In this document: positions 3,933-5,063 of the stretch, in pieces
Numbering within the stretch: position 1 is the stretch's first letter
How the letters are laid out: each line of letters opens with the position of its first letter
DNA from: Hydrogenimonas sp.
GTDB lineage: Bacteria > Campylobacterota > Campylobacteria > Campylobacterales > Hydrogenimonadaceae
Direction: 5' to 3'
Assembly: GCA_021647345.1 (NCBI GenBank)
Contig: JAKIUX010000107.1
Span: 1 to 5,063 of the forward strand
Length of the DNA: 5,063 nt
The notes under the pieces: model-generated
Told to the model about the DNA's origin: nothing
Database searches by the model: none
The model's input: only the letters and a program-made list of their open reading frames with translations
Position numbers and translations under genes: made by a program

Positions 3933-5063
3933 CTATAGCCCAAGCCTCTCTTTTATAGCTTCGATTCTATCCGTTTTTTCCCATGTAAACTCTGCAAGCT
4001 CCCGCCCAAAGTGCCCATACGCAGCTGTTTTTTTATAAATCGGGCGTAGAAGGTCGAGCGAGTCGATAATTCCTTTGGGAGTAAGATCGAAGAGTTCAAG
4101 GATCGATTTCTCTATCTCTTTCTCATCCACTCTGCCGGTTCCGTGAGTATCTACCATAATCGATACCGGCTCGACGACTCCTATAGCGTAAGCTATCTGT
4201 ATGGTAATCTTTTCGCAAGCTCCAGCCGCAACATAGTTTTTAGCAACATATCTTGCTGCATATGCGCCGCTCCTATCAACCTTGGTCGGATCTTTTCCGC
4301 TAAAAGCTCCGCCACCGTGCGGGCAACTTCCACCGTAGGTATCCACTATAATCTTTCTGCCTGTAAGACCTGCATCTCCTTGGGGCCCGCCGATGACAAA
4401 GCGTCCTGTCGGATTTATATGATAAGTTATATTCTCATCTATCAACTCTTCAGGGATGATTTTATAGATCAGCTCTTCGATTATCGCATTTTTGAGCCTC
4501 TCCTGCGAAACATCTGGATCGTGCTGGGTCGACACCACTATAGTCTTCACGCTTTTAGGCTTCCCATCTACATACTCGACAGTGACTTGAGCCTTTCCAT
4601 CAGGGCGCAAAAAGGGAAGAGTTCCATCTTTTCGCGCTTTTGCCAACCCTTCTGTCAATTGATGTGCCAAATATATAGGTAACGGCATCAGGGTAGGCGT
4701 CTCTTTGCAGGCATACCCAAACATCAACCCCTGGTCACCGGCTCCTATGGCGCCGCTGCCTTGATCCACCCCTTGATTTATATCCGGGGACTGCTCGCCT
4801 ACTCCGTTAAGTACACCTGCCGACCTGTAGTCGAACCCGTAGAGGGCGTCTGTATATCCTATCTGCCTGATCACCTCCCTGGCAATATCTTGCATTGGAG
4901 CGTAAGTTTTAGTTTTAAGCTCTCCAGCTACTTTAATATATGGAAGCAGAGTTACATGTATATTCATAACTCTACTACCACCTAACTCATGCTTAATTTG
5001 GCGAATTGTCTCTAAAAATGGTAACCCCTCTATATCTCCAACAGTTCCACCAAGCTCAACTAT
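3933..5063 (-). CDS. metK: S-adenosylmethionine synthetase, N terminus replaced by PyrG
   Basis: From about 4925 down to the stop at 3933 the frame encodes MetK, which makes S-adenosylmethionine from ATP and methionine. Numbering from the Met at 4967, it has GAGDQGLMFGYA (75-86), RPDGK (121-125), GLTGRK (200-205) and GGGAFSGKDPTKVDRS (218-233). These retain Lys and Asp residues of the active site. About 330 residues match the C-terminal part of a typical 385-residue epsilonproteobacterial MetK. The first roughly 55 residues are absent, including the SESVTEGHPDK-type motif with the catalytic His and Mg-binding Asp. In their place, with no stop up to the window edge, the frame encodes CTP synthase. 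As drawn the product could not be an active MetK. I think the join is more likely an assembly artefact than a real fusion. The ATG at 4967 lies inside the PyrG part and is not a true start. Confidence 0.85.
   Translation of the reverse strand: MVELGGTVGDIEGLPFLETIRQIKHELGGSRVMNIHVTLLPYIKVAGELKTKTYAPMQDIAREVIRQIGYTDALYGFDYRSAGVLNGVGEQSPDINQGVDQGSGAIGAGDQGLMFGYACKETPTLMPLPIYLAHQLTEGLAKARKDGTLPFLRPDGKAQVTVEYVDGKPKSVKTIVVSTQHDPDVSQERLKNAIIEELIYKIIPEELIDENITYHINPTGRFVIGGPQGDAGLTGRKIIVDTYGGSCPHGGGAFSGKDPTKVDRSGAYAARYVAKNYVAAGACEKITIQIAYAIGVVEPVSIMVDTHGTGRVDEKEIEKSILELFDLTPKGIIDSLDLLRPIYKKTAAYGHFGRELAEFTWEKTDRIEAIKERLGL
4905..4925 (-). other. MetK/PyrG join at a shared short word
   Basis: The codons here read Gly-Glu-Leu-Lys-Thr-Lys-Thr. 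PyrG normally reads GELKTKPTQHS at this place, and epsilonproteobacterial MetK reads GELKTxxYAPMQ. The frame follows PyrG up to this word and MetK after it. The exact crossover base cannot be fixed because both parents share the word. Confidence 0.8.
4908..5063 (-). pseudogene. pyrG: CTP synthase (PyrG) fragment, cut at both sides
   Basis: Read on the minus strand from 5063, 52 codons encode a piece of the CTP synthase amidoligase domain, which makes CTP from UTP, ATP and ammonia. It begins IVELGGTVGDIEGLPFLE and ends VTLLPYIKVAGELKTK. It aligns without gaps to about residues 138-189 of Escherichia coli PyrG. Fragment Glu3 falls on the Mg-binding Glu140, Asp10-Glu12 on the CTP-binding 147-149 stretch, and Lys50/Lys52 on Lys187/Lys189. 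The expected continuation PTQHSV is missing, and the rest of PyrG, including the glutaminase domain, is not in the window. The upstream part runs off the edge. It is more AT-rich than the MetK part it joins. Confidence 0.88.

Follow-up and report, generated by a model that had tools for sequence, protein, structure and literature searches.

A pyrG fragment joined in frame to metK at a Hydrogenimonas contig end as a probable assembly or library artefact

Chimeric nodes in de Bruijn assembly of metagenomes are stretches common to two species, which must be partitioned, and nodes left unpartitioned give rise to chimeric contigs, as set out in the MetaVelvet-DL report (PMC8171044). In the inter-species chimeric contigs described there, a common stretch joins the paths of two species, and the resulting contig resembles one species in one part and a second species in another (PMC8171044); the latter feature recurs in the DNA analysed here, and the former is proposed for it. 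However, that report deals with stretches common to evolutionarily similar species (PMC8171044), whereas the stretch considered here is a short word found in two unrelated gene families, encoding PyrG (CTP synthase) and MetK (S-adenosylmethionine synthetase). A full PyrG consists of a synthase and a glutaminase domain and spans about 540 residues, and MetK has three S-AdoMet_synt domains.

Here we describe a join between these two families in the window, which is a complete contig (C210, 5,063 bases) of a 280-contig Hydrogenimonas draft genome with a completeness of 76.87%, about 23% of the genome being absent. The join lies 133 bases from the contig end, and the segment beyond it is hereafter referred to as the tip. 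Sequence comparisons indicate, with a probability of about 0.96, that the attachment of pyrG to metK is an artefact of assembly or library preparation, that the tip likely comes from another genome and that no real gene fusion is involved. As biology, such an artefact would not matter; it is useful as a caution.

Native genes and the frame across the join

The body of the contig contains seven genes identified from open reading frames and family searches, all on the minus strand. The features of the window are as follows.

479 to 3876, minus strand: ferredoxin, ndk, YceD-like, rpmF, plsX and fabH genes, native downstream genes identified by family matches
3933 to 4930, minus strand: metK (SAM synthetase; TIGR01034), 5′ truncated, with its first ~46 codons replaced by the pyrG tip
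4908 to 4930 (21 nt at 4908–4928, at most 23 nt), minus strand: ambiguous junction word coding AGELKTK, matched by both families
4931 to 5063, minus strand: internal fragment of pyrG (CTP synthase), foreign-looking and running off the contig end (CTP_synth_N 137–188 for 5063–4908)

The metK gene and its six neighbours match genomes of the same genus, that of Hydrogenimonas. The order of metK and the six further genes is identical in all five same-genus regions fetched (11 kb each), and on the strength of this shared seven-gene order the contig body looks sound. In none of these five regions does a pyrG gene lie near metK.

On the minus strand, a frame of 376 open codons runs from 5063 to 3933 with no stop and leaves the contig at its end. 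Residues 1–52 of this frame match positions 137–188 of the Pfam CTP_synth_N domain (62.9 bits) and positions 138–189 of the NCBIfam CTP synthase profile, the latter with 75.2 bits for the PyrG part, below the cut-off of 308 bits. The likeness to PyrG is thus confined to 52 residues of the synthase domain, about one-tenth of the protein, and the fragment has neither the glutaminase domain nor a start nor a continuation. From 4925 onwards, the frame matches positions 51–375 of the 377 positions of TIGR01034 metK (506.7 bits; positions 47–375 in the family search of the draft), and the MetK part is 95% identical to the MetK of genome G014 over 330 residues. The central and C-terminal S-AdoMet_synt domains are matched almost end to end, as in the family. 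By contrast, the N-terminal domain is partial, being matched only from position 53 of 99 (47 with the tip attached), and the first ~46 residues are missing, including the GHPDK stretch present in relatives. These matches bear out the first-pass annotation, which had read a single frame passing from PyrG 138–189 into MetK without interruption. It had also warned that gene calling would conceal the join, and a caller using ATG starts would indeed report a plausible MetK of 344 residues from 4967, the first residues of which belong to CTP synthase. The metK gene should accordingly be treated as 5′ partial, and 4908–5063 as doubtful.

Position of the switch and the shared word

The position of the switch was defined with a comparison set of 154 fetched loci (159 minus five copies of the window). 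These comprised 84 distinct pyrG sequences, with at least 60% identity over 133 bases, from all taxa and with the draft's own copy included, and 18 distinct metK sequences, with at least 70% identity over 200 bases (14 from the same genus and 4 from the same order). At position 4907, the window is matched by all 18 metK sequences and by none of the 84 pyrG sequences, and at position 4931 by 65 of the 84 pyrG sequences and by none of the metK sequences. The mean identity over 4931–5063 is 70% for pyrG and 27% for metK, as compared with 20% and 78%, respectively, over 4844–4907, a contrast between the two sides that, on these alignments, is far beyond chance. Between the two break points the families match the window equally (75.7% for pyrG and 75.8% for metK). 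By this measure the switch falls inside 4908–4930, that is, at the GELKT(K) word to which it had originally been assigned, and the break points are the same when duplicate loci are kept in the count (70 and 24 rows).

The original description of the frame as a chimera was open to challenge from any homologue with similarity running continuously across the join. No such sequence was found among the 102 distinct aligned sequences, in which no one sequence has more than 32% identity on the side that it matches less well, and the description stands. The same result bears on the idea of a naturally occurring gene family in which a MetK body follows a PyrG-like N terminus, for which the single open frame could be taken as support. 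In two protein searches of about 5.8 billion proteins, each of which scored 8,000 candidates and listed the best 120, the protein of the window was the sole one with both PyrG and MetK domains; none of the 119 other matches listed in each search carried both, although a weaker chimera could be hidden beyond the best 120 of 8,000. An independent continuous homologue was thus seen neither in these listed matches nor in the alignment, and the codon usage of the tip, described below, is unlike that of the rest of the contig. We consider a natural PyrG–MetK fusion family to be extremely improbable and reject it as a candidate.

The junction word belongs to both families. The residues AGELKT are present in all 18 distinct metK sequences, and AGELKTK in 7 of them; AGELKTK is also present in at least 60 of the 84 distinct pyrG sequences, as counted from the 12 commonest forms. 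Since the two genes read this word in the same frame, a join at the word is in frame. Exact common words of at least 15 bases were found in 26 of the 1,512 pyrG/metK pairs, and of at least 18 bases in 11 pairs, with a maximum of 21; in three equally sized control blocks, common words never exceeded 7 bases. The 21-base pair includes a Rhodospirillales pyrG (L057), and the three 19-base pairs include a pyrG from the window's own order or from a Sulfurovum record. A pyrG from the genus closest to the tip (L161) and a same-genus metK (L016) have 20 bases in common. On the other side of the balance, the pyrG closest to the tip (L160) has no exact word longer than 12 bases in common with a metK sequence of the set of 18. 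The 21-base word of the window itself is carried by 5 of the 169 fetched loci, all of which are the window, and the parent sequence of neither side was found among these 169 loci. The AGELKT(K) word is a stretch in two unrelated Campylobacterota genes that is long enough to mislead short-k assembly.

Origin of the pyrG tip

The tip differs in composition from the gene to which it is attached, with a GC content of 36.1% as compared with 48.3% for metK. Its third-position GC is 0.20, a value lower than in any window of metK (280 windows) or of its six neighbours (815 windows). The first-pass annotation had proposed a join of two genomes or of two loci, and these two possibilities fared differently. 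A join of two loci of one genome is rejected, because the draft's own pyrG has a third-position GC of 0.56 and is identical to the tip at only 94 of 133 nucleotides (~71–72%), whereas the pyrG of genome G412 (L160) is identical at 118 of 133 (~89%), with the junction word left out. A join of two genomes agrees with these comparisons.

The tip is matched in 266 of 398 genomes of the order, with a best identity of 82% (G055). Counting against a foreign origin, the best same-genus pyrG (G015) is 76% identical and thus nearer to the tip than the draft's own pyrG (72%). In the family of G055 (f5), which is probably Sulfurovaceae, 112 of 175 genomes match the tip, and the best five all belong to a single genus (g31), with G412 in first place (88%). 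The L160 pyrG of G412 and P0121, a CTP synthase of 545 amino acids, are identical at all 60 of 60 residues, and one of 52 residues differs between P0121 and the tip. The names nearest to the tip vary: the three best named DNA records are assigned to Campylobacterales, Sulfurovaceae and Sulfurovum (94% at the amino acid level), and one protein match of 94% is named Nitratifractor sp. (P0143). Non-overlapping parts of the contig match different organisms, the body matching the same genus and the tip lying nearest to g31, a genus of another family. These comparisons suggest that the tip likely derives from another genome. Its sequence lies nearest to the pyrG of Sulfurovum relatives, where the best DNA match is only 88–89%, too low to name a donor species.

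The missing metK 5′ end and a proposed route to the join

The first-pass annotation had also called for a search of the same assembly for an intact pyrG and an intact metK 5′ end. The former was found, as the draft's own pyrG lies intact on contig C145 in an open frame of 555 codons; the latter was not. The draft contains a single metK match, which is the truncated copy, and no second metK was found by family search in this 76.87% complete draft. In genomes G003 and G014, a divergent peroxiredoxin-like gene and then a Dxs-like gene (both named from sequence reading) lie upstream of metK. The metK 5′ end and these upstream neighbours were not found in the draft with G014 DNA: one search, run with no control genome, gave no match, and a second gave only short alignments, 19 and 15 bases long (E 0.1 and 0.6). 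At the protein level, neither the MetK N terminus nor the peroxiredoxin-like protein had a match in the draft, although both were clearly positive in the control genomes G014 and G005, and the Dxs-like protein gave only a partial match of 29% in the draft and was positive in both controls. Neither the DNA nor the protein searches thus placed the missing 5′ end of metK at the end of any other contig of the draft. With the upstream segment absent from the draft, an intact metK cannot be shown there, which counts against certainty; the absence also agrees with a contig that broke off at a gap within metK before being wrongly extended.

In the control genomes, both same-genus drafts, the MetK N terminus has a second match besides the main metK, 56% identical at G005:C175:16609-16743 (L145) and 50% identical at G014:C250:804-941 (L146). 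These second matches may be paralogues or foreign DNA binned with the drafts.

These searches also weigh on a real in-frame recombination, in which a Sulfurovaceae-type pyrG fragment would have entered metK through microhomology of 21–23 bases in some cells of a Hydrogenimonas population while the genome kept an intact metK at another place. No stop interrupts the frame at the join, pyrG is intact in the draft, and the 23% of the genome outside the draft could accommodate a further metK. However, no second metK matches in the draft, the N-terminal GHPDK stretch of relatives would be lost, the contig ends after only 133 bases of foreign sequence, and no other instance was found among the 120 matches listed (best of 8,000 scored). 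Such an event is very unlikely on this evidence.

The join between the tip and metK is best read as an inter-genome chimeric contig end, and the pyrG–metK join is most likely not a real feature. The assembly-artefact cause put forward in the first-pass annotation fits the tests run, in that real pyrG and metK sequences can be identical at the junction over as many as 19–21 bases. We propose that a pyrG of Sulfurovaceae type and this metK, present together in a mixed community, had an exact word in common that was about 21 bases long and coded AGELKTK. At this word, a short-k assembler step, or a chimeric read, would have left the metK path for the pyrG path, and the extension into pyrG would have stopped after roughly one read length; no fusion protein would exist in the organism. 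Iterative assemblers in common use have a smallest k close to this length of about 21 bases, and the 133 bases of the tip beyond the word are probably about the length of one short read. A common word of this size would account at once for the existence of the join, for where it falls, for its in-frame state and for how near it lies to the contig end.

Within this artefact reading, the join may instead have arisen during library preparation, as a chimeric read produced by template switching at the common word and then assembled faithfully. A word of 21–23 bases could prime such switching, the tip would again be about one short read long, and nothing specific speaks against it, since such a read would leave the same sequence as a graph error; we regard it as a minor variant, rather unlikely to be the actual route. 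At the other end of the window, positions 1–478, beyond fabH, only short open reading frames of 50–58 amino acids are listed. Between rpmF and ndk, the YceD-like gene (2663–3034), a weak family match (E 0.027), shows lower identity than any other of the seven genes (56–81% across five relatives), and its place is kept in all five.
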